This document shows, piece after piece, positions 12,695 through 52,483 of a stretch of DNA of 64,000 bases. The position numbers and the translations under genes were made by a program. The notes under the pieces are model-generated. The model worked only from the letters and a program-made list of their open reading frames with translations. It was not told the DNA's origin and made no database searches. This DNA comes from Thermoplasma sp. (lineage in GTDB: Archaea > Thermoplasmatota > Thermoplasmata > Thermoplasmatales > Thermoplasmataceae). The DNA lies in assembly GCF_008709555.1 (NCBI RefSeq), contig NZ_VYIJ01000005.1, positions 1 through 64,000 of the forward strand. Reading direction: 5' to 3'. Within the stretch, counting starts at the first letter, position 1, and every line of letters starts with the position of its first letter.

Positions 12695-13220
12695 ATGAAA
12701 GTTCAAAAGATAATGAACTCAAACTTCAAGACTGTTAACTGGAACGCGACCGTCTTCGACGCGGTGTAGATAATGAATGAAAACCATCTCTACGGCCTAG
12801 TTGTGAGGGACGATAATGGGAATAGGGTTGCTCAGCGAACGCAGCATAATAAAACGCTTCATTCCAAGGAACAAGAAACCAGACGAGGTACCGGTTAAGC
12901 TGGTGATGAGAAAACCAATACCAAAGGTCAGATCCGATTACGATGTTAAGGACGTTGCGGCTTATCTCAGCGAGAACGGTCTCGAGAGATGTGCGGTCGT
13001 CGACGACTCCGGGCATGTTGTTGGGATCGTGACGCTTACCGATCTGTCCAGATACCTTTCCAGGGCTTCTATAACCGGCGTTCTTCTTTCCCACAGGACG
13101 AAGGATTACCAGCACATATGCCCGAAGTGCGGTGTCGGTATACTTGAACCCGTCTACAATGAGAAAGGTGAAATAAAGGTGTTCAGGTTTTCAAACCCGG
13201 CTTGCGACTATGAGGAGTGA
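12695..13220 (+). pseudogene. CBS-domain / zinc-ribbon protein, degraded
   Basis: Translating from the ATG at 12695 gives the start of a CBS domain (MKVQKIMNSNF...), but codon 25 is TAG (12767-12769), where a Lys codon would fit. The match continues in frame (IMNENHLYGLVVRDDNGN) to about 12825 and then jumps frame: GLLSERSIIKRF continues in the frame of the ATG at 12816. The rest holds the end of CBS 1, a second CBS domain and a C-terminal zinc ribbon. The ribbon has CPKC but only one of the later two cysteines: FSNPAC stands where I expect CSNPAC. From memory the intact orthologue is T. acidophilum TA0289, a dimeric CBS protein with a rubredoxin-like zinc domain. A nonsense codon, a frameshift and a lost zinc ligand together indicate decay; a 134-aa product from 12816 could still be made. 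Confidence 0.85.
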
Positions 13221-13375: not shown

Positions 13376-13702
13376 ATGAGTTCAAAGGATCTCATAAACC
13401 AGATGGTAGGAAAGGTTCCGGAAAAAGACATGGCTGACATTGCAAAGACCAGCAAGACCGTGAACATAGAGCTGAGCGATTCCAGTCCGTTCCGGATCGT
13501 CATAGGCAACGGGAAGATAGACATAGCAGATGGAAAGGCTGATAAGGCTGATGCGACGGTCAAATGCACCGATCAGGTTCTCAGCGATATAATAACCGGA
13601 AAACTGAACGCATTTTCCGCATTCATGAGTGGCAAGGTCACTGTTTCTGGCGATCTCTTCTTTGTGCAGAAGATGATAACTGTTCTCGGAAAGGGGAAGT
13701 GA
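13376..13702 (+). CDS. SCP2 sterol-carrier-like lipid-binding protein
   Basis: Small single-domain protein of 108 aa whose pattern (FRIVIGNGKIDIADGKADKADATVKC then GKLNAFSAFMSGKVTVSGDL, cited here as segments) matches the SCP2 fold, a hydrophobic cavity that carries acyl-CoAs or other lipids. It lies 4 nt before the hydroxyacyl-CoA dehydrogenase/hydratase gene, so it probably delivers or holds acyl-CoA intermediates for beta-oxidation. No catalytic residues are expected in this family. Confidence 0.85.
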   Translation: MSSKDLINQMVGKVPEKDMADIAKTSKTVNIELSDSSPFRIVIGNGKIDIADGKADKADATVKCTDQVLSDIITGKLNAFSAFMSGKVTVSGDLFFVQKMITVLGKGK

Positions 13703-13706
13703 GACC

Positions 13707-15680
13707 ATGGAGATCAACAAGGTAACCGTTATCGGTTCTGGAATAATGGGTCATGGCATAGCTGAGGTCATAGCTCTCGCAGGCCTGGACGTCAACATTG
13801 AGGACGTTTCCAACGAGATACTTGAGAAGGCTAGGAATTCCATAAGCGCCAGCCTGGACAGGCTTGTGAACTCAGGAAAGCTGAAGAACAAGGATGAGGT
13901 TCTTTCAAGAATACACTACTTCACGGACATACCGGCATCGGTTAAGGACGCAGATCTGGTCATAGAGGCCGTTCCTGAAGTACTGGAGATAAAGAGGAGC
14001 GTTTTCGATCAGCTCGATAAGAGCACAAAGGACACGGCGATACTTGCGACAAACACATCGAACATAAGGCTTACGGAGATCGCTGAAGGCATAACGAAGA
14101 AGGGCAAGGTTGTGGGCATGCACTTCTTCAACCCACCGGTCGTATTGAAGTTAGTTGAGGTCATAAGGAGCCAGTACACCGAGGACGAAGTATTTGAAAC
14201 CGTTTACGAGTTTTCGAAGAGGATAGGGAAAACGCCGATAAAGGTCTACAAGGACACACCGGGTTTCGTTGTCAACAGGATAAACGCTCCGGAATCGCTT
14301 TACTTCTGCCTAGTCATAGACAAAGGTCTGGCCAAGCCGGAGGAGGTGGACAGGTTTGCGCGTTCGCAGGGTCTCCCAATGGGGCCATACGAACTCATGG
14401 ACTACGTGGGCATCGATACGGTTTACCATTCCTTGCAGTACTATGCAAAGGAGCTATCGCCCGACTACTCCAAGTGTCAGGTCTACACTAAGCTCTTCAA
14501 CGATAAGAAGCTGGGGCTTAAGACAGGGGAAGGCTTCTACAAATGGGTGAATGGGAAGGCGCAGATCCCGGAGGCAAAGCCGACAAAAGCAGTAGAGCTC
14601 ATGGATATCTTTGCGCTGGAGATAAACGAGGCTGTCAAGATAATCGAGGAAGGAGTTGCATCGCCTGACGATATCGAAACGGGTGTGAAGCTCGGAATGA
14701 ACAGACCGTTCGGTCCGATAACCGTGGCGAAGGGGCTTACGAATGCCGAGGTAAAAAGCAAGCTTGAGGCGCTCTACCAGAAGTTTGGCGTGGAAGTTTT
14801 CAGGCCAGCAAAGTCCATAGCAGAGGGGAAACTGAAAACGGTCATATCCATGCAGATCGCTCCATCAAAACCAGAGGAGAAGAAGGTGGAGGCAGCTTAC
14901 GTGTCATCCAGCGACCCGGTAATAATGGAGACGAAGGGGAAGATCGCAGTTCTCCGCATAAACAACACGAAGAACAACCTGATCAACGCTGCAGTCATGG
15001 ATGGATTGGAAAAGGCGCTGACCGATCTATGGAACAACCGGGAGATATCTGTGGTCATAATCACCGGAAACGGGCCCGTGTTCTCGGCAGGCGCACAGCT
15101 GGACTCATTCTTCAGCAGCACATTTGACTTCATGGAGTTCGCACGGCGTGGTGAACGTGTTTATAAACTCCTCAGCGAGATACCAAAGGTGACCATAGCA
15201 GAGATGAAGGGCTACACGCTTGGCGGTGGGTTCGAGATGGCCCTGGCCTGCGACATAAGGGTGGCTACGGATGATGTCCAGATAGGATTCCCAGAGGTCA
15301 CTCTCGGTCTCGTTCCAGGCTGGGGTGGTACGCAGAGGTTGTCGCGCGCTGTTGGTCAGTCCAGGGCCGCCTACTATATACTGACAGGCGAAAGGTTCAC
15401 CGGCAGGGATGCGTACGAGATGGGCATAGTTTCGAAGATATTCAGCAAGGATACGATAGACTCTGAAACACTGAATCTTGCGCAGACCATAGCCGAGAGG
15501 GTTGCCCCAATATCAGCGGCACTTGCGAAGAGGCTCGTCCTCAGGAGCACTAACACCTCGCTGGACGATGGGCTGGAGATGGAGGCCATATCAATGGGGC
15601 TTCTATACGGAACGGAGGATCTCAAGGAAGGAATATCGGCCTTCCTTGGAAAGAGAAAGCCAAACTATCAGGGAAAATGA
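13707..15680 (+). CDS. 3-hydroxyacyl-CoA dehydrogenase / enoyl-CoA hydratase fusion
   Basis: A 657-aa bifunctional beta-oxidation enzyme. Residues 1-180 are the NAD-binding domain (GSGIMGHGIAEVIALAG), with EAVPE and the catalytic-His segment HFFNPP. Residues 185-380 are the dehydrogenase C-terminal domain. Residues 405-657 are a crotonase: oxyanion-hole motifs GPVFSAGAQL and GGGFEMALACDIRVA, and both catalytic glutamates present (GGGFE and FPEVTLG). The domain order is dehydrogenase first, the reverse of bacterial FadB but common in archaea. Together they hydrate enoyl-CoA and oxidise the resulting 3-hydroxyacyl-CoA. The thiolase and dehydrogenases for the flanking steps are encoded nearby on the opposite strand. 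Confidence 0.95.
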   Translation: MEINKVTVIGSGIMGHGIAEVIALAGLDVNIEDVSNEILEKARNSISASLDRLVNSGKLKNKDEVLSRIHYFTDIPASVKDADLVIEAVPEVLEIKRSVFDQLDKSTKDTAILATNTSNIRLTEIAEGITKKGKVVGMHFFNPPVVLKLVEVIRSQYTEDEVFETVYEFSKRIGKTPIKVYKDTPGFVVNRINAPESLYFCLVIDKGLAKPEEVDRFARSQGLPMGPYELMDYVGIDTVYHSLQYYAKELSPDYSKCQVYTKLFNDKKLGLKTGEGFYKWVNGKAQIPEAKPTKAVELMDIFALEINEAVKIIEEGVASPDDIETGVKLGMNRPFGPITVAKGLTNAEVKSKLEALYQKFGVEVFRPAKSIAEGKLKTVISMQIAPSKPEEKKVEAAYVSSSDPVIMETKGKIAVLRINNTKNNLINAAVMDGLEKALTDLWNNREISVVIITGNGPVFSAGAQLDSFFSSTFDFMEFARRGERVYKLLSEIPKVTIAEMKGYTLGGGFEMALACDIRVATDDVQIGFPEVTLGLVPGWGGTQRLSRAVGQSRAAYYILTGERFTGRDAYEMGIVSKIFSKDTIDSETLNLAQTIAERVAPISAALAKRLVLRSTNTSLDDGLEMEAISMGLLYGTEDLKEGISAFLGKRKPNYQGK

Positions 15681-15700
15681 TCATTTCTTGATCATTTCCC
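15671..15700. terminator. Hairpin spanning both convergent stop codons
   Basis: GGGAAAATGATCA (15671-15683) pairs with TGATCATTTCCC (15689-15700): 12 bp with one bulged A and a 5-nt loop. The two genes meet with no spacer at 15680/15681, so this one repeat encodes the last codons and stops of both. A T run lies a few bases further in the plus direction. Confidence 0.6.
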
Positions 15701-17273
15701 TTAAAACCTTTTTATCTACCTTTCCAGTGCTTGTTTTTGCGAATTCCTTCACGTTTATGAAATCGTCTGGTATCCAGAACTTTGCGATCCTCCCGGCATT
15801 GACCATGTCCATCAGATGCCTGCGGATGTCATCTGGTTTTGCGGTTCCGGTGTAGAATGCCACGGGCCTCTCGCCCCACTTTTCATCCGGCTTTCCGACA
15901 ACGGCGTTTTCTATGACGCCAGGACATGAACTTATGGCATCCTCGAGCACAAGCGATGGAATGAACTCCCCACCGGATTTCACAGCGTCCTTCTCCCTGT
16001 CCACTATGCGTATGTAGCCGTACTCGTCCATGACGGCGAGATCTCCGGTGTGCATCCAGCCACCACGCCATAGGGCCTCAGTGCCTTCATTGTTCTTGAC
16101 GTATACGCTTGTGAGCCATGGTGCCCTGACAACTATCTCTCCTATTGTCTTCTCGTCCTTCGGCACATCGTTCATCTTGTCATCAACCACACGGAGCTGC
16201 ACCAGAGGTATGGGAACGCCTGTCTTGAGCCTGAACTTCTTCTTCTCCGTGTCAGGCATCTCCTTTACCCTTTCGTTGTAGGTTGCAAGCGTGAGGATGG
16301 GAGCAGTTTCTGAGAGTCCATAACCGGATATGGCGGTTATACCTAGCTTTTCAGCGGCATTAGCGAGTCCCTCTGGAAGTGCACCACCTCCCACAATGGC
16401 TCTGATGCCGCGCCCGGCAATTTTCTTCACGTTGGGGTTCGTCACTATAAGGTAGAGTATCGAAGGAACCATTGCTATTACGCTTACGTTGTACCTGTCG
16501 ATGAGATCGATTATGTGGTCGAAATCGTATCTTCCAGGGAGAACGTAACGCCGGCCTGCCATTATGGACATGTACGGCACGCCCCAGGCGTGCACGTGGA
16601 ACATCGGAACCAGAGGCATTATGGTGTCCCTTGACGTCAGGTTTATTGGATCGTCACCAAGAGCAAGACCTGAGGAGATAGAATGAAGGACGATCTGCCT
16701 GTGCGTGAACTGCACACCTTTCGGTAGGCCCGTCGTCCCGGACGTGTAGAAGGTGGTCGCAAGATCGTTTTCAGATATCTGCGGAAGTTCGATATCCGAA
16801 TATGATCCCTTCATGAGATCCTCGTAAATATACTTGGGCGAGATCGAATCAGGAATCTGCCCTGTCTCTGAGTAAACGATCCATCCCTTTATGAAATAGA
16901 AAGCCTCCCTGTTCTTCGAGAGTATCGGAACGAATTCATCACGAACTATCACGTACTTGTCCTCAGCATGATCCATCGTGTAATATATCAGATCCTGGGG
17001 ATAACGGACATTAACGGTGTGCAGGACAGCACCAATCATAGGAACGGCAAAGTAAGCTTCCAGATACACATAGGTATCCCAGTCTATGACTGCAACCCTG
17101 TCGCCCTTCTTCACGCCGATCGAGATAAGCGCCTTTGCCAGAGTGTAAACGCGCTTTCCGAACTCCTCAAACGTGAATTCTCTCCTGCCAGTGTAATTTA
17201 TCACCTGTGCAGGATTGGATGATATACCACTCTGTAACAGCTTATCTATGGTAAGTTCGTATTTATACTCCAT
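15681..17273 (-). CDS. Acyl-CoA synthetase (AMP-forming)
   Basis: Adenylate-forming ligase that activates a carboxylic acid to its CoA thioester with ATP. P-loop-like motif YTSGTTGLPKGV (about residue 175), then YGLSETAP, the hinge/ATP motif with GWMHTGDLA and EYGYIRIVDREKD, and the C-terminal catalytic Lys in KTSTGKVDKKVLR. About 530 aa. I chose the ATG at 17273 rather than 17288 because an AT-rich TATA element at 17295-17304 lies about 26 nt before it. It resembles medium/long-chain fatty acid ligases; chain-length preference cannot be read. It probably feeds the beta-oxidation enzymes around it. Confidence 0.93.
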   Translation of the reverse strand: MEYKYELTIDKLLQSGISSNPAQVINYTGRREFTFEEFGKRVYTLAKALISIGVKKGDRVAVIDWDTYVYLEAYFAVPMIGAVLHTVNVRYPQDLIYYTMDHAEDKYVIVRDEFVPILSKNREAFYFIKGWIVYSETGQIPDSISPKYIYEDLMKGSYSDIELPQISENDLATTFYTSGTTGLPKGVQFTHRQIVLHSISSGLALGDDPINLTSRDTIMPLVPMFHVHAWGVPYMSIMAGRRYVLPGRYDFDHIIDLIDRYNVSVIAMVPSILYLIVTNPNVKKIAGRGIRAIVGGGALPEGLANAAEKLGITAISGYGLSETAPILTLATYNERVKEMPDTEKKKFRLKTGVPIPLVQLRVVDDKMNDVPKDEKTIGEIVVRAPWLTSVYVKNNEGTEALWRGGWMHTGDLAVMDEYGYIRIVDREKDAVKSGGEFIPSLVLEDAISSCPGVIENAVVGKPDEKWGERPVAFYTGTAKPDDIRRHLMDMVNAGRIAKFWIPDDFINVKEFAKTSTGKVDKKVLREMIKK

Positions 17274-17402
17274 GTCTTTATATTGCATATCTGGATAATA
17301 TATTTTCTGTATCTATATGTAGGAATAATCGCATGTTTAAAATATTTAAAAATTAAATATATTATTTTCCTGAGATCTTTTTGGAAAAACGATGATAATA
17401 AG

Positions 17403-17411
17403 TTTTTATTT
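17403..17411 (+). promoter_or_regulatory. TATA box of the thioesterase gene
   Basis: TTTTTATTT centred 25 nt before the ATG at 17432. This spacing decides the start against the upstream TTG at 17411, which lies inside the promoter. Confidence 0.55.
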
Positions 17412-17431
17412 TGTCCCGGCATTCTGAAACG

Positions 17432-17830
17432 ATGTTTGATGGAGAAGATCTGAAGAAGATATTTGCAATGGACGGTTTTCTCAGGAATATAGAGTTTGAT
17501 GTGTCATATATTTCGGAGGGATCAATAGAAATAAAGGTCCCGCTGAGGGAGAACCTGATACGTATCGGCGATATAATGAATGGTGGTGCCATAATGGCAA
17601 TTTCAGACGCCATAGGTGGATTGACCGTGCTCACATACGGGACGGTCATAAATCAGGTCACGGTTAACTTTAGCACGGAATTCATAAGGCAGATAGGTAA
17701 GGGGCCGGTGGTATTCAGAAGCAGGATGGTCAGGATCGGCAAGAACATAGCCTATGTTGATGTGGAGGCGCTGGATGGCGATGGCCAGCTGTGTTCAAAA
17801 TCAATGGGTACCTATTATATATACAGATAA
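17432..17830 (+). CDS. Hotdog-fold thioesterase, PaaI-like
   Basis: Hotdog-fold protein of 132 aa. The diagnostic segment is GDIMNGGAIMAISDAIGGL (about residues 47-65), in which Asn-Gly-Gly replaces the His-Gly-Gly of many PaaI enzymes and the Asp of ISDA is kept. The family hydrolyses acyl-CoA thioesters, often to rescue trapped CoA. Its place between the acyl-CoA ligase and the acyl-CoA dehydrogenases supports a role in acyl-CoA turnover. It is transcribed alone, against both neighbours. Confidence 0.85.
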   Translation: MFDGEDLKKIFAMDGFLRNIEFDVSYISEGSIEIKVPLRENLIRIGDIMNGGAIMAISDAIGGLTVLTYGTVINQVTVNFSTEFIRQIGKGPVVFRSRMVRIGKNIAYVDVEALDGDGQLCSKSMGTYYIYR

Positions 17831-17845
17831 AAAAATAAAAGGTCA

Positions 17846-17866
17846 CGGTATCCTCAGATTATACCG
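17846..17866. terminator. Inverted repeat across the acyl-CoA dehydrogenase stop
   Basis: CGGTAT (17846-17851) and ATACCG (17861-17866) form a 6-bp stem. It covers the stop codon of the minus-strand dehydrogenase and lies 16 nt after the stop of the convergent thioesterase gene. An A-rich run at 17830-17840 reads as a T run on the minus strand. Confidence 0.45.
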
Positions 17867-18867
17867 CCCTTCTCTCCCATGACCGTCTGCGAAATTACAC
17901 CGTTTTCCCAGGAATCATCGCCGAAATATACGGCGAGTGCCATGGCATCCCTGTAGTATTTCTCTATTCCGAAGTCGTGTATGTAGCCGTATCCGCCATG
18001 TATCTGCAACGAACTTCTGCTAGCCGTTAGCGCAATATCCTTTGCCTTAACCTTGCATAAGGCCCTTGCATACTCACCCTGATTTCCATATAGATAGAAG
18101 CGTATGAGATCTATCTGCGTCCTAGCGTTCACGATTTCGTCGAAGATCGGCGTATAATCCTTCAGCGGATGATCGAATGCGGTTCTGACTTTGGAATAAT
18201 CGATCGCCTTCTGCATAGTGCCATCAGCGAGGCCGAGGAATATGGAAGCGATCTCGCCATCTGATTTCTTCAATTCCATCCTCAGCTTTTCCTCAGATCC
18301 GACCTTCTCATAGGAGGAGGAATCAAAATCGATATCGGACAGATCCATTCCTCGAAGCCCAAGGTGGTTCCTGCTTTCAGCATGCATTCCTGAATTCACG
18401 GCATATATATTTGTTCCGTCGCTGACGATGATTGACGAAGCGGTTCCGTTGATCACACCGGTGCGCCTGCCGGTCAGCTTTCCTCCCGTGACCGTGAGCG
18501 GGTTAGTTTTGCTCCTGAGGTAATATGGAGATATGTCCACGGTGGCATCGACGCTTCCAGACATTATTCTCTCCTTCTGATCGGTATCAGGGTACAGCTT
18601 CAGGTACAGGTTTGTGAGAAATATCCAAGTTGAAACGGATGGCGACGCTTTGGCCGTTTCCTCTAGTATTATCATGTATCCGTTCTCATCGAGGCCCGCA
18701 CCGCCTTTTTCTGCCGGGAGAGTTGCACCGATGAATCCCTGCCCGGCAATCTTCTCCTTCAACTGCCTCTGTATCCCGTTCAGCTCTATGTCCTTTGATA
18801 CTGGCTCTATCTCCTTTGTCGCGAACTCCCTCACCGTATTTCTAAGGATCTCGTATTCTTCCATCAT
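17854..18867 (-). CDS. Acyl-CoA dehydrogenase-like protein, short and lacking the catalytic Glu
   Basis: At 337 aa it is shorter than usual (about 380-400). It keeps the C-terminal flavin-contact motif LQIHGGYGYIHDFGIEKYYRDA, of which I cite IHGGYGY as key (about residue 290). Where active enzymes carry the catalytic Glu of W/Y-E-G-T, this protein reads VYFGDDSWE, so the Glu is replaced by Phe. The middle beta-domain also lacks the TEP..GSD flavin motif. Its start overlaps the last codon of the next dehydrogenase by 4 nt, so the two are translationally coupled. I infer a non-catalytic partner subunit rather than an independent enzyme. It is not obviously a pseudogene, since the frame is intact and the rest is conserved. 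Confidence 0.85.
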   Translation of the reverse strand: MMEEYEILRNTVREFATKEIEPVSKDIELNGIQRQLKEKIAGQGFIGATLPAEKGGAGLDENGYMIILEETAKASPSVSTWIFLTNLYLKLYPDTDQKERIMSGSVDATVDISPYYLRSKTNPLTVTGGKLTGRRTGVINGTASSIIVSDGTNIYAVNSGMHAESRNHLGLRGMDLSDIDFDSSSYEKVGSEEKLRMELKKSDGEIASIFLGLADGTMQKAIDYSKVRTAFDHPLKDYTPIFDEIVNARTQIDLIRFYLYGNQGEYARALCKVKAKDIALTASRSSLQIHGGYGYIHDFGIEKYYRDAMALAVYFGDDSWENGVISQTVMGEKGGII

Positions 18868-19973
18868 TGTGTATCACCCACCTTCAGCATTCTGGCTATG
18901 ACGAGTTTCTCGATCTCACTGGTACCCTCCCATATCTCCATGATCTTGGCGTCCCTGAACGATCTCTCCATACTCGATGTGAGGCCGTCTACACCGGTGA
19001 TCTCCATGGCCTTCCTTGATACGTATACAGCGGTTTCCGCAGCATACGCCTTGGCCATGCTGGTGACAGCAGGATTCGGGTTGAAGTTGAATATGAAGGA
19101 GGCAGCCTCATAGGTCAGGAGCTTTGCAGCCTCTATCCTGGTGGCCATATCTGCTATTGTGAACTGGACCCTTTCCGGCTGTGATGTCAGAGGCCCATCC
19201 TTCTGAAGGATGTTAACGGCCCTCTCGAGTATACCCTCGGCTATGCCAAGGGCCTGTGCTGCGACGTATGCCCTGCTTATATCGAAGAAGGTCATTATGT
19301 AGTAGAAGCCCCTGCCGGGTTCTCCAACAAGGTTCTCCTCTGGCACCTTGACGTTCTCCAGGGTAAGCTCAGCCGTATCAGTTGCGCGCACTCCCAGTTT
19401 TCCATGTATCTTGTTGGATTTGAAGCCTTCGAAGTTCCTCTCAACTATGAACACGCTCATGCCCTGGTGCTTCTTCTTCTCCACGGAGGTCCTTGCGAGG
19501 AGTACGAAGAAATCCGCTATGTCGCCGTTAGTTATGAACATCTTTGATCCGTTGAGGATGTAATGATCGCCTTCCTTAACGGCCGTGGTCTTTATGTTTG
19601 CCACATCGCTTCCGCCACCTGGCTCTGTAACTGCCAGGCCCATCTTTGCCTGGCCTGAGAATACCCTGCTCAGGTATTTCTTCTTCTGTTCGTCGTTTCC
19701 GAAGAGTGCTATTACTTCATTCCCGAAGAACGGTACCAGCATGGATATCCCCATGCCTGCATCGTACTTGCAGAACGTCTCCGTGGCTACAAGTATGTTC
19801 CACGGGTTTGAGTAGTCAAAAACACCTTCGCTCAGCATCTTTCTGACGACCTCATCAGGATATTTTTCCTGAAGATCGTATTTTGACGCAGCCTCCTCCG
19901 TGAACTCCCTCCTTGCAAACTCCTCAACCTTTTTCCTGAACTCCTTCTGGGATTCATCAAGTTCGAAATTCAT
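18864..19973 (-). CDS. Acyl-CoA dehydrogenase, catalytic-Glu subunit
   Basis: Oxidises acyl-CoA to 2-enoyl-CoA with FAD and passes electrons to ETF. The ATG at 19973, 1 nt after the thiolase stop, is the likely start (369 aa); the open frame extends further upstream into the thiolase gene. Motifs: AVTEPGGGSD (flavin), FITNGDIADFF, and WEGTSEIE at the C terminus with the catalytic Glu. By contrast, the QxxGGxGY motif that normally contacts the flavin of a neighbouring subunit is degenerate here (MEITGVDGLTSS). The downstream partner gene has the opposite pattern. The thiolase-dehydrogenase-dehydrogenase genes form one operon. Confidence 0.93.
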   Translation of the reverse strand: MNFELDESQKEFRKKVEEFARREFTEEAASKYDLQEKYPDEVVRKMLSEGVFDYSNPWNILVATETFCKYDAGMGISMLVPFFGNEVIALFGNDEQKKKYLSRVFSGQAKMGLAVTEPGGGSDVANIKTTAVKEGDHYILNGSKMFITNGDIADFFVLLARTSVEKKKHQGMSVFIVERNFEGFKSNKIHGKLGVRATDTAELTLENVKVPEENLVGEPGRGFYYIMTFFDISRAYVAAQALGIAEGILERAVNILQKDGPLTSQPERVQFTIADMATRIEAAKLLTYEAASFIFNFNPNPAVTSMAKAYAAETAVYVSRKAMEITGVDGLTSSMERSFRDAKIMEIWEGTSEIEKLVIARMLKVGDTQ

Positions 19974-19974
19974 A

Positions 19975-21165
19975 TCAATACCTCTCAAACACGACAGAAT
20001 AGCCCTGTCCTCCTCCAACACAGAGCGTTGCCACTCCGTAATCCTTCTTCTTCTCATTCATTATACGTGCCAGTGTGCCTGCGATCCTGGCTCCGGTGGC
20101 ACCTAGTGGATGGCCGATTGCTATGGCGCCTCCATGTACGTTCACGCGATCCTCTTCAATACCAAGCTCTTTCATGGCGTTGAGTACGACGACGGCGAAG
20201 GCCTCGTTTATCTCCCACAAATCGATGTCGGATACATCCATCTTCGCCTTTGCAAGCGCACTTCTGGTTGCAGGTACAGGCCCCTCACCCATTATGGATG
20301 GATCCACGCCTGCCCACCCGAAGGACACGATACGAGCCATAGGCTTGAGCCCGTATTCCTTGACTTTCTTCTCTGACATAAGGAGTGTCAGCGAGGCGCC
20401 AGCGTTTAGCGGTGATGAGTTTCCTGCCGTTATGATGCCATCATCCCTGAAAGCCGGCTTCAGCTTCTTCATTTCCTCAAGGGATGCGTTCTTCCTTATG
20501 CTCTGATCAGTATCAATGACCTTCTCCTCACCGTTTATCTCCACCTCGATGGGAACGATCTCGCCCTTGAAGTATCCGTCGTCCAGCGCCTTGGAGGCGA
20601 GCTGGTGGCTTCTCAGCGAAAATCTATCCATCTCGTCTCTGCCTATGCCTCTGAGCGCCGCTAGTTTCTCTGCTGTCAGGCCCATCGAGTATCCCGTATT
20701 CATGTCATAGTGCATGTATTCAGGCCTCACCATGAGCTTTATGTTGGGTTTCAGGAAGGGGCTGTTTCCCATGGGTACGTGTGTCATGTGCTCATAACCA
20801 CCGGCCATTACGATCTCGGAATTGCCCGTCATTATCTCCATGGCACCTATTGTTATTGCGTTGAGCGATGAGGAGCACGCTCTGTCTAGGGCCATTCCCG
20901 GGACATTGTCTGGCAGATTGGCAAGCAGTATGGGGTGCCGCCCGCCGTATGTCCAGTTTTCGTCCATCTGCAGGGCACAGCCAGTTATCACGTCGTTTAT
21001 CTCCTCTGGCCTGATCCCTGTCTCATCTATCACCGTATTGATCAGCTTAGCCATGGCTTCATCCATGCGGATAGAGTTGAACACATCCTTCTCCGGATCG
21101 TTCGGTCTTGATCTGGAGAATGCAGTTCGTTTGAAATCGACGAGGTATACATTCTCACCATTCAT
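19975..21165 (-). CDS. Acetyl-CoA C-acyltransferase (thiolase)
   Basis: Cleaves 3-ketoacyl-CoA, or condenses two acetyl-CoA. It is 396 aa with the nucleophilic Cys in RACSSSLNAITIG (about residue 89), the His in GHPLGATGARI and the second active-site Cys in LCVGGGQG, all of which are needed for a true thiolase rather than the SCP2-type archaeal relatives. It is the first gene of the operon with two acyl-CoA dehydrogenases, which points to the degradative direction. Confidence 0.94.
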   Translation of the reverse strand: MNGENVYLVDFKRTAFSRSRPNDPEKDVFNSIRMDEAMAKLINTVIDETGIRPEEINDVITGCALQMDENWTYGGRHPILLANLPDNVPGMALDRACSSSLNAITIGAMEIMTGNSEIVMAGGYEHMTHVPMGNSPFLKPNIKLMVRPEYMHYDMNTGYSMGLTAEKLAALRGIGRDEMDRFSLRSHQLASKALDDGYFKGEIVPIEVEINGEEKVIDTDQSIRKNASLEEMKKLKPAFRDDGIITAGNSSPLNAGASLTLLMSEKKVKEYGLKPMARIVSFGWAGVDPSIMGEGPVPATRSALAKAKMDVSDIDLWEINEAFAVVVLNAMKELGIEEDRVNVHGGAIAIGHPLGATGARIAGTLARIMNEKKKDYGVATLCVGGGQGYSVVFERY

Positions 21166-49060: not shown

Positions 49061-50347
49061 ATGAGTGAATTTGATGTCATAGTTATCGGCGCTGGTCCCG
49101 CTGGATCCTCTGCCGCAATAAAACTTGCGCAGGGTGGTATGAACGTGCTTCTGGTGGAGAGGGGAGATCCTCCAGGAACAAAGAACGTTTCTGGTGCGGT
49201 TCTCTGGGGCGATGAGCTCTCGAAGGTCGTGCCAGACTGGGAGAGGAGTGCGCCCATTGAACGTTACGTAACCAGAAAGGAGGTCGCATTTCTCACGGAG
49301 AAGTCCAAGATAGCCATAAGCTACAGTTCACAGGATCTGATGGAAAGGAAGTCAGGCAAGATCATAGTAAGAGGAAAATTCGATCAGTGGCTGGCAAGAA
49401 AGGCCAAGGACGCGGGTGCTATGCTCGTGACCGGAATAACCATAGATAAACTGGTCATCGACGGTGGTAAGGTCATTGGCGTGATGCAGGATGGAGATGT
49501 CATCACATCTGACGCAGTCATAGTGGCTGAAGGGGCGAATCCAAGGGTTCTCATCAATTCCGGGCTCAGGCCAAAGCTCTCAGATCATGATGTTGCTCTT
49601 GGAATCAAGGAGACTATCAAGCTTCCGGAAAACGTGATAAACGAAAGGTTCAACGTGGATTCCAAGGGCGGATACGCATCTGAGTTCGTTCTTGGCTTCC
49701 TGGATGATGGCATTCTTTCCGGCGGATTCCTTTATACAAATAGGGATACGGTATCGCTTGGAATAGTGGCTTCTCTTGACAGGCTGAGGGCAAACGGCAT
49801 GACCCATTCATATGATATAATGGGGAAGTTCGAGGAACATCCGTTCATAAAGAACCTGATAAAGGACGGGATACCAGACGAATACGCGGCCCACCTGGTA
49901 CCTGAAGGAGGTCTTGCAAGCATGCCAAAGCTGTACGGCAATGGATATCTCGTGACCGGAGATGCGGCCATGTTCACGTTCAGCAACGGCATGGTTCTGC
50001 AGGGCATAAACTATGCGATAACATCTGGGATACTGGCTGCCGAAACGATACTTGAGAATAAGGGCAAGATAAGCGAGGAGACCCTGTCAAACTACGTGAA
50101 CAAGCTCCGCAACAGCTACGTTCTGAGCGATCTGTACACGTTCAACGGCATCCAGAACGTGACATGGAGCGATTTCACCCAGAAGACCATGCCTAAGATA
50201 CTCGACAGCGTAATGATGTCGATGTTCGATGAACGTGGCATGCCGAAGAAGCATCTCATGCAGGTGCTGTCCGCTGCGGTCAAGTCCAACGGAATGAAGT
50301 ATACGGAGCTGATATCAAGCGGCTACCGCATGATGAGGAAGATGTGA
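49061..50347 (+). CDS. fixC: FixC-like electron-transfer flavoprotein:quinone oxidoreductase
   Basis: FAD protein of 428 aa passing electrons from the FixAB flavoprotein to quinone. The N-terminal FAD-binding motif is VIVIGAGPAGSSAAIKLA with the downstream VLLVERGD; SGAVLWGDE, and GDAAMFTFSNGMVLQGINYA at the second FAD site, match the ETF-QO/FixC family. The iron-sulfur domain of animal ETF-QO is missing here and supplied by FixX, encoded next. First gene of fixC-fixX-fixA-fixB. Confidence 0.93.
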   Translation: MSEFDVIVIGAGPAGSSAAIKLAQGGMNVLLVERGDPPGTKNVSGAVLWGDELSKVVPDWERSAPIERYVTRKEVAFLTEKSKIAISYSSQDLMERKSGKIIVRGKFDQWLARKAKDAGAMLVTGITIDKLVIDGGKVIGVMQDGDVITSDAVIVAEGANPRVLINSGLRPKLSDHDVALGIKETIKLPENVINERFNVDSKGGYASEFVLGFLDDGILSGGFLYTNRDTVSLGIVASLDRLRANGMTHSYDIMGKFEEHPFIKNLIKDGIPDEYAAHLVPEGGLASMPKLYGNGYLVTGDAAMFTFSNGMVLQGINYAITSGILAAETILENKGKISEETLSNYVNKLRNSYVLSDLYTFNGIQNVTWSDFTQKTMPKILDSVMMSMFDERGMPKKHLMQVLSAAVKSNGMKYTELISSGYRMMRKM

Positions 50348-50636: not shown

Positions 50637-51431
50637 ATGCTAAACATAGTTGTGATGATAAAGCAGGTTCCTGACAGCAGCGAGGTTGAGATCGATCCTG
50701 TAAAGATGACGCTCAATAGGACAAAGGCGAGAAACGTTGTCAATGCGGCAGATCTCAATGCGCTGGAATACGCATTGAGGATAAAGGACAAGGTGGGAGC
50801 CAACATAACGGTGATATCCATGGGTCCGCCTATGGCTGATGCAGCCATAATTGAATGCATGGCCCGCGGAGCGGATCGTGGCATCCTCATCACCGATAGG
50901 GCATTTGCTGGTGCGGATACATATCCTACCGGCCTTACTCTGGCCGCAACGATAGCGAAACTGGGGAACGTCGATATCGTGTTTGGAGGGGATGAGACGA
51001 CCGATTCCAGCACAGGCCATGTAGGACCTGGTGTGGCCGAATTCCTCGGCATTGACCAGATAACGTACGCCAAGGAGGTTGATTATGAGGATGGCTACGT
51101 CATAGCGACCAGGGATCTCGAGGATGGAGACGAGATCGTTAAGGTCCACACGCCGGTGCTTGTGACAGTCCTGCTGAACTCAAATGTGCCAAGGCACCAG
51201 AGTCTCAGGAAGAAGATCGACGCGATAAGGAAAGGCGTCGAATCTTGGGGCATAAACGAGCTCGGTCTCAAGCCAGAATGGGTCGGCCTTCGCGGTTCGC
51301 CGACGATCGTCAGATCTATGAAGGCCATCAAGGAGCCTGAACACCTTCACAAGACGATCACATTGGACAAGATCGATGAGGTCGTTGCAGACCTTGTTTC
51401 GAAGAACATAATCAAGGTAGGTGGTAAGTGA
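50637..51431 (+). CDS. fixA: Electron-transfer flavoprotein beta subunit
   Basis: 264-aa ETF beta subunit: MLNIVVMIKQVPDS at the N terminus, MNAAD-like VNAADLNALEYALRIKD, and the AMP/FAD-binding FGGDETTDSSTGHVGPGVAEFLG (cited from GGDETTDSSTGHVGP). It forms a dimer with FixB that accepts electrons from acyl-CoA dehydrogenases such as those encoded at 17.9-20.0 kb. Only 6 nt separate it from fixX. Confidence 0.95.
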   Translation: MLNIVVMIKQVPDSSEVEIDPVKMTLNRTKARNVVNAADLNALEYALRIKDKVGANITVISMGPPMADAAIIECMARGADRGILITDRAFAGADTYPTGLTLAATIAKLGNVDIVFGGDETTDSSTGHVGPGVAEFLGIDQITYAKEVDYEDGYVIATRDLEDGDEIVKVHTPVLVTVLLNSNVPRHQSLRKKIDAIRKGVESWGINELGLKPEWVGLRGSPTIVRSMKAIKEPEHLHKTITLDKIDEVVADLVSKNIIKVGGK

Positions 51432-52483
51432 TGGTTGGCCTGATAAATGCGATTCCGGTAGCGAACAAGGACGAATACAAGAATGTCGGCGTATACATAG
51501 AGCACAGGGGCGATGATATAAAGAGGTCGTCCATAGAGATGATAGGCATAGGCAAACAGTTAGCCCGCAAGATCAATGAGAAGCTGATCTGCGTTGTCAT
51601 AGGAGACAAGGTGGATGGTATAGCAAAGGAGGTGGGCGAGTACGGCTGCGATATAGTGCTCGCAGCAGAATCACCCGATCTGGCCGAATACAGGACCATG
51701 CCCTATGCACAGATAATCGGAGATTACATTGCAGAATACAAGCCAAACATATTCCTCCTTGCCGCGACCAGGAACGGAAGGGATCTCGCATCGAGGATAG
51801 CGGTTAAGGAGAGGACGGGTATAACGGCTGACTGTACGGTGCTAGATGTGGACGAGAACAGGACGCTTCTTGCCAACAGGCCTACCTACGGTGAGAGCAC
51901 GCTGGCAGAGATACTGTGCAGGAACCACAGGCCGCAGATGGCAACGGCCAGGCCGGGCACATTCACTCCGGCTGAGAAGGAGAAGGATCATAAGTACGAG
52001 ATAGTCAAGAAAAAGGTCAACGTGGACAAGAGCCTGCTGGGCAAGCAGATACTGAAATTTATCCCGAAGAAGGCCACAGATCTCACAGCGGCGAAGATCG
52101 TCGTGGCTGGCGGGCTTGGCCTTGGGGGCCCAGACGGATTCAAGCTTCTGCAGGAACTTGCCGATCTAATTGGTGGGGCTGTTGGATCGTCGAGGCCGCC
52201 TGTGGATCTTGGCTGGATAACCAGGGATCACCAGGTTGGCCAGACAGGTCAGGCTGTCAGGCCGGATCTTTACGTTGCGGTTGGCATATCTGGAAAGCCG
52301 CAGCACATAGCAGGAATGAAGTTCTCAAAGGTGATCGTCAGCATAAACAAGGATCCGAACGCAGAGATAAACAAGATATCGGATTACATCATAACGGAAG
52401 ACTACAGAAAAGCCGTACCAGCGCTCATAGACGCAATAAAGAATTTCGGAAAGCAGAAGGTGGCCGAGGCTCAGAAGGCCTGA
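51431..52483 (+). CDS. fixB: Electron-transfer flavoprotein alpha subunit
   Basis: 350-aa ETF alpha subunit. The C-terminal FAD domain has VVAGGLGLGGPDGFKLLQEL, RPPVDLGW, QVGQTGQAV and GISGKPQHIAGM. The ATG at 51431 overlaps the fixA stop (TGATG); the GTG at 51428 is less likely. Together with FixA, FixC and FixX it either feeds electrons to quinone in beta-oxidation or bifurcates electrons; this sequence cannot settle which. Its end overlaps the convergent thrS gene by 13 nt. Confidence 0.95.
   Translation: MVGLINAIPVANKDEYKNVGVYIEHRGDDIKRSSIEMIGIGKQLARKINEKLICVVIGDKVDGIAKEVGEYGCDIVLAAESPDLAEYRTMPYAQIIGDYIAEYKPNIFLLAATRNGRDLASRIAVKERTGITADCTVLDVDENRTLLANRPTYGESTLAEILCRNHRPQMATARPGTFTPAEKEKDHKYEIVKKKVNVDKSLLGKQILKFIPKKATDLTAAKIVVAGGLGLGGPDGFKLLQELADLIGGAVGSSRPPVDLGWITRDHQVGQTGQAVRPDLYVAVGISGKPQHIAGMKFSKVIVSINKDPNAEINKISDYIITEDYRKAVPALIDAIKNFGKQKVAEAQKA

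Follow-up and report, generated by a model that had tools for sequence, protein, structure and literature searches.

Half-Site Architecture in Known Acyl-CoA Dehydrogenases

In homotetrameric acyl-CoA dehydrogenases (ACADs), every FAD is bound between the two monomers of a dimer. One of these provides the pocket for the flavin ring and CoA together with the Glu base, and the C-terminal domain of the other monomer contributes an Arg, a Gln, and a Gly. In human SCAD, F152, L154, S155, T187, G160, and S161 of one monomer touch FAD, R297, Q365, and G369 reach it from the adjacent monomer, and the Q365H substitution prevents tetramer formation (PMC13027082). Steroid-degrading bacteria possess ACADs in which this labor is divided between two proteins. 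These enzymes are α2β2 and are active only as such; the Glu is present only on α, and β contacts the ADP-ribose of FAD (PMC8399759, PMC11153573). They include ChsE4-ChsE5 (FadE26-FadE27) and ChsE1-ChsE2 (FadE28-FadE29) of M. tuberculosis, IpdE1-IpdE2, and Scd1AB of Pseudomonas, and the literature assigns one FAD to each αβ unit and the substrate pocket to α. Acid-mine Thermoplasmatales carry full β-oxidation gene sets, and it is difficult to match the individual ACADs to a role (PMC3750248).

A similar division is found in two adjoining genes of Thermoplasma sp., located in the 64,000-nucleotide stretch analyzed here (NZ_VYIJ01000005.1, positions 1 to 64,000), hereafter the window.

Organization of the Gene Pair

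The larger gene, encoding the predicted catalytic subunit α, occupies 18864..19973 on the minus strand (369 aa; PF02771, PF02770, and PF00441). The smaller gene, encoding β, follows directly on its 3′ side at 17854..18867, also on the minus strand (337 aa; PF02771 and PF00441, without PF02770). The ATGA at 18864..18867 (minus strand) is common to the α stop and the β start, which suggests translational coupling. The α start used here is backed by homologues, and an alternative in-frame ATG lies upstream, within a thiolase gene. A previous sequence-only reading of this DNA had delimited the same two open reading frames. Both are real and its coordinates were exact, the strand being the only addition, and every motif that it quoted for the two proteins was found again in the sequence.

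Motifs Kept and Lost in Each Subunit

α is a member of the ACAD superfamily, as it carries the N-terminal, middle, and C-terminal ACAD Pfam domains and the catalytic Glu. It keeps TEPGGGSD, the FAD contact of a chain's own side (19605..19628, minus strand; VTEPGGGSD is residues 115-123), and WEGT (18921..18932, minus strand; residues 348-351), which alignments identify as the site of an MCAD-type catalytic Glu, E349. MFITNG and the CoA-side Arg are also kept. T116, E117, G121, S122, D123, R234, and W348-E349-G350 are invariant in the α alignment, and the catalytic Glu occurs in 31/31 aligned α proteins. The partner-side site is lost. According to the alignments, EITGVDG (18975..18995, minus strand), read further as EITGVDGL, stands at the position of Q..GG.G in other ACADs, leaving α without the Gln and the GGxG of QxxGGxG. 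The RxxF flavin motif of helix H (QKDGPLTSQPERVQF) is also missing, a loss absent from the earlier list. In addition, an N-domain loop of about 10 residues (PEEYGGAGxD) is missing from α and present in β, where it reads LPAEKGGAGLD.

β has the ACAD fold with N- and C-terminal domains and belongs to the same superfamily, with a reduced middle domain and no Glu. It keeps, by alignment, two partner-side FAD motifs, namely RTAF (R228 and F231; 18175..18186, minus strand), which is missing in α, and QIHGGYG (Q288-G294; 17986..18006, minus strand), part of LQIHGGYGY at residues 287-295. YFGD (17917..17928, minus strand; residues 314-317) takes the place of the catalytic-Glu loop of other ACADs in the alignments, and TEP..GSD, the own-side set, and the CoA-side Arg are absent. 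R228, F231, Q288, H290, G291, G292, Y293, and G294 are among the 23 columns that are invariant across 29 diverse β homologues. The Arg, Gln, and Gly kept in β are counterparts of the adjacent-monomer FAD residues of human SCAD. The GGxGY region had been described earlier as contacting the flavin of a neighboring subunit; the contact across the interface holds, but its object is FAD rather than the flavin (PMC13027082, PMC11153573). A Glu in both proteins had been named as evidence against a heteromer, and the residue was found in 0/31 aligned β proteins.

Confident single-chain AF2 models with the ACAD fold were obtained for α (pLDDT 85.6, pTM 0.85) and β (pLDDT 90.8, pTM 0.92), the latter matching SCAD with a TM of about 0.8. 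The best PDB matches found by Foldseek for both models were SCAD, MCAD, and BCD-type enzymes rather than the known heteromers. The lowest confidence in β falls in the block of residues 291-300, at the end of the QIHGGYGY loop (residues 294-298), as expected if this loop needs a partner or FAD.

A Split FAD Site and the Proposed Enzyme

The complementary split is identical across an alignment of 31 α and 31 β genes and recurs in those of them included in a broader ACAD alignment; judged from these sequences, the pattern is far beyond chance. Canonical archaeal and bacterial rows of the ACAD alignment carry both the own-side and the partner-side sets. In the α rows, the own-side set and the Glu are present and the partner-side Arg, Phe, and Gln are missing, except that one row shows an Arg in the partner-side Arg column by alignment. 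The β rows keep the Arg and the Phe, with Gln in 15/17 and Asn in 2/17. Canonical ACADs score well on both the α and the β profiles, and α and β score strongly only on their own. Since different residues are invariant in the two proteins, selection appears to maintain one half of a shared FAD site in α and the other half in β.

Each protein lacks the half-site that the other keeps, and they should consequently work only as a pair. The arrangement is that of the heteromeric functional type, with the Glu and flavin pocket on α, cross-interface FAD residues on β, and adjacent genes. It is very probable that the two form an obligate heteromeric acyl-CoA dehydrogenase with a catalytic α and a cofactor-completing β. 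An αβ dimer would contain one complete FAD and active site, as α holds only the own-side set and β only the partner-side set, and this unit probably assembles into an α2β2 tetramer, which would have two active sites instead of four. E349 of α would take the α-proton of the substrate, the hydride would be passed to FAD, and the electrons would move onward to an electron transfer flavoprotein (ETF). The sequence-only reading had proposed an obligate heteromer with half the usual number of active sites, and this remains the best explanation, given that the split covers every flavin-contact motif tested and that the two genes are neighbors in a fixed order in essentially every case.

Distribution of the Pair

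α and β profile searches were carried out in 117 genomes of the order Thermoplasmatales. The β family was found in 87/117 genomes and the α family in 87/117. α is directly followed by β in 87 adjacent pairs from 86/117 genomes, with gaps of -2 to 23 bases between the profile matches. Paired β genes score at least 227 bits on the β profile and other ACADs at most 210, a clean break. This survey found no pair in family f5 of the order. Outside the order, a small number of Thermoplasmata families (f14 and f31) and two MAG loci (L039 and L040) have the pair, and it was not seen in the sampled remainder of the phylum. Conservation within Thermoplasmata, which had been suggested as a check, is thus borne out for most of the order and a few neighboring families. 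A wider genome scan with the β profile gave, among the matches listed, a few archaeal proteins, and nearly all the others were canonical ACADs with about 25% identity. None of the loci read showed an α-β gene fusion.

Five copies are unpaired (two β and three α). Four are cut by contig ends (G489:C56, G483:C5, G471:C2, and G245:C18), and in G471 a partial β follows α. The fifth is a true orphan, an α-like gene of one Thermoplasma species (L203:3382-4515, G003:C23) that is 49% identical to the window α and has no β nearby. It keeps the Glu, has lost RxxF and GG, and sits in another β-oxidation cluster. Strict one-to-one pairing thus does not always hold. Genes occurring apart had been regarded as evidence against the heteromer: β stands apart only at contig ends, which favors it, and the extra β-less α of this species counts against it.

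In a 1,584,804-bp genome of the same genus (G004), β is frameshifted near residue 160-168 and α is intact. The broken β (L013:1034-2043, G004:C1:1371749-1372755; also L181:7750-8759) is read as two ORFs (159 and 169 aa) that are each still well conserved, and its second half alone scores 229 bits on the β profile. The frameshift may be a sequencing error, a recent mutation, or a two-piece β. Within the genus, identity is 82-85% for β versus 95% for α, and β is thus evolving much faster. From the sequences, this appears odd for an intimate interface, though the FAD residues of β stay fixed.

The genome of the window also contains a second α-β pair at a contig end (L179:4301-6464, G000:C3), near another acyl-CoA ligase, with an identity to the first pair of 51% for α and 35% for β. 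Profile searches found no second full pair in other Thermoplasma genomes. Two β genes in one genome bin (L204 at the contig end G489:C56, and G489:C65) possibly represent a second pair or mixed strains. Another degenerate ACAD of the window's genome (L178:4697-5545, G000:C25) lacks the Glu motif and has TEPVSGAT. It is kept in all five Thermoplasma genomes at 54-83% identity, and no close match beyond Thermoplasma was found in 26 genomes searched.

Gene Neighborhood and Metabolic Role

A thiolase gene (19975..21165, minus strand; PF00108/PF02803) lies directly upstream of α, and the thiolase-α-β unit is present at all inspected loci with an available upstream flank. The pair is accompanied in the window by genes for an SCP-2-like lipid-binding protein (13376..13702, plus strand; PF02036), a fused 3-hydroxyacyl-CoA dehydrogenase/enoyl-CoA hydratase for β-oxidation steps 2-3 (13707..15680, plus strand; sequence read), an acyl-CoA ligase of the AMP-binding type (15681..17288, minus strand; PF00501), and a hotdog thioesterase (17411..17830, plus strand; PF03061). 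No steroid genes were noticed among the window genes read. In other genomes, the dehydrogenase/hydratase fusion is often near the thiolase-α-β unit, and an acyl-CoA ligase is near the pair in several. ETF β and α (50637..52483, plus strand) and an ETF-QO/FixC-like protein (49061-50347) were read from ORF sequences, and this ETF is the probable electron acceptor. The gene context supports a role of the pair in β-oxidation with ETF as acceptor. The conserved unit makes it probable that αβ is the principal fatty-acyl-CoA dehydrogenase of the order, acting at the first step of β-oxidation.

Two further observations concern the surroundings of the unit. In one genome (L183:695-5003), ETFβ/α and a 682-aa FeS membrane oxidoreductase, which resembles EtfD when the ORF is read by eye, adjoin the thiolase; this cluster possibly supplies every step of electron transfer from acyl-CoA to the membrane. 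In the window, a CBS-domain protein with a DUF1936 tail (12816-13220) is encoded beside the SCP2 and dehydrogenase/hydratase genes. It is kept at the same place in two Thermoplasma genomes and is possibly a sensor of the cluster.

Alternative Explanations

It is unlikely, although conceivable, that α is a self-sufficient homomer with replaced FAD contacts and that β is a separate accessory for ETF docking, lipid binding, or regulation. The orphan α-like gene and the genome with a broken β and an intact α speak for such an arrangement, but it leaves unexplained both the invariant partner-side FAD residues of β and the inseparable pair in 86 genomes. The orphan itself would need a partner, as it also lacks RxxF and GG, and the β of that genome's other pair may serve it as well. 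Even less credible is the idea that β is a functionless, decaying duplicate of α. Decay would fit the absence of the catalytic residue, the reduced length, the higher rate of evolution, and the G004 frameshift. However, β lies directly downstream of α in every uncut locus of the order (the orphan α apart), is in frame in all but G004, and retains its 23 invariant columns; this conservation led to rejection of the decay scenario.

A transfer of the steroid-type α2β2 family (ChsE/FadE/IpdE) to Thermoplasmatales is very improbable. Gene order and motif split are alike in both, and weak matches to IpdE2 and to 6wy8 heteromer chains were found. However, the Glu of steroid α is at the IVD-type position (xER), whereas that of Thermoplasmatales α is at the MCAD position. 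All Thermoplasmatales α rows of the ACAD alignment have SR or TR at the former position, and the steroid-type α rows have ER and lack a Glu at the MCAD site. AU tests rejected placing the Thermoplasmatales and steroid-type proteins in one clade, both for α (p 0.0005) and for β (p 0.015), on quick trees in which proxies from one Streptosporangiales (actinobacterial) genome stood for the characterized steroid-type proteins. The Foldseek matches of SCAD/MCAD type also argue against this origin, and the match to the NCBIfam IpdE2 equivalog reaches 28 bits against a cut-off of 450. On a quick tree, α groups among SCAD/BCD-like ACADs, and β is on a long branch. Membership of the ChsE/IpdE family was rejected by Glu position and AU tests. 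The parallel drawn earlier with mycobacterial FadE pairs is valid for function and not for common descent.

Implications

The heteromeric reading likely represents a second origin of the split between catalytic and FAD-completing chains, from a SCAD-like branch, serving as the core β-oxidation dehydrogenase in most Thermoplasmatales and a few neighboring Thermoplasmata, and the first in archaea. The earlier statement that such a type is undescribed in archaea agrees with the open-access literature, of incomplete coverage, which yielded no account of a split ACAD from archaea and outside which one possibly exists. If correct, the half-site architecture is not peculiar to steroid catabolism, can arise independently, and can be maintained across a whole order of archaea in general β-oxidation. 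The question of why a homotetramer would sacrifice half of its active sites could then be asked on a second, independent example; candidate reasons are room for large substrates, ETF access, and regulation. It is probable that many archaeal β proteins bear no more than the label acyl-CoA dehydrogenase, and a metabolic reconstruction in which every such protein is taken for an enzyme would be misled.

Comparison with Known Systems

α is 34-38% identical to homotetramers of the SCAD/butyryl-CoA dehydrogenase/MmgC type and shares their Glu, TEP..GSD, and CoA-side Arg. These enzymes carry all motifs in one chain, whereas α lacks RxxF, the Gln, and GG, which are found on a second protein. CasC-type ACADs of R. 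jostii consist of two fused ACAD domains forming a functional pair (PMC8399759), in contrast to the two separate genes of Thermoplasma. The closest functional likeness is with the steroid α2β2 enzymes, which have the same two genes in the same order, an α with Glu, and a β with partner-side FAD contacts. They differ in that the catalytic Glu of Thermoplasmatales α corresponds to the MCAD-type Glu376 and that of steroid-type α to the IVD/LCAD position. Furthermore, the steroid enzymes are linked to steroid genes, whereas the Thermoplasma pair is archaeal, adjoins a thiolase and general β-oxidation genes, and takes separate tree positions. The Thermoplasma pair would work like the ChsE/IpdE dehydrogenases but is probably not a member of their family.
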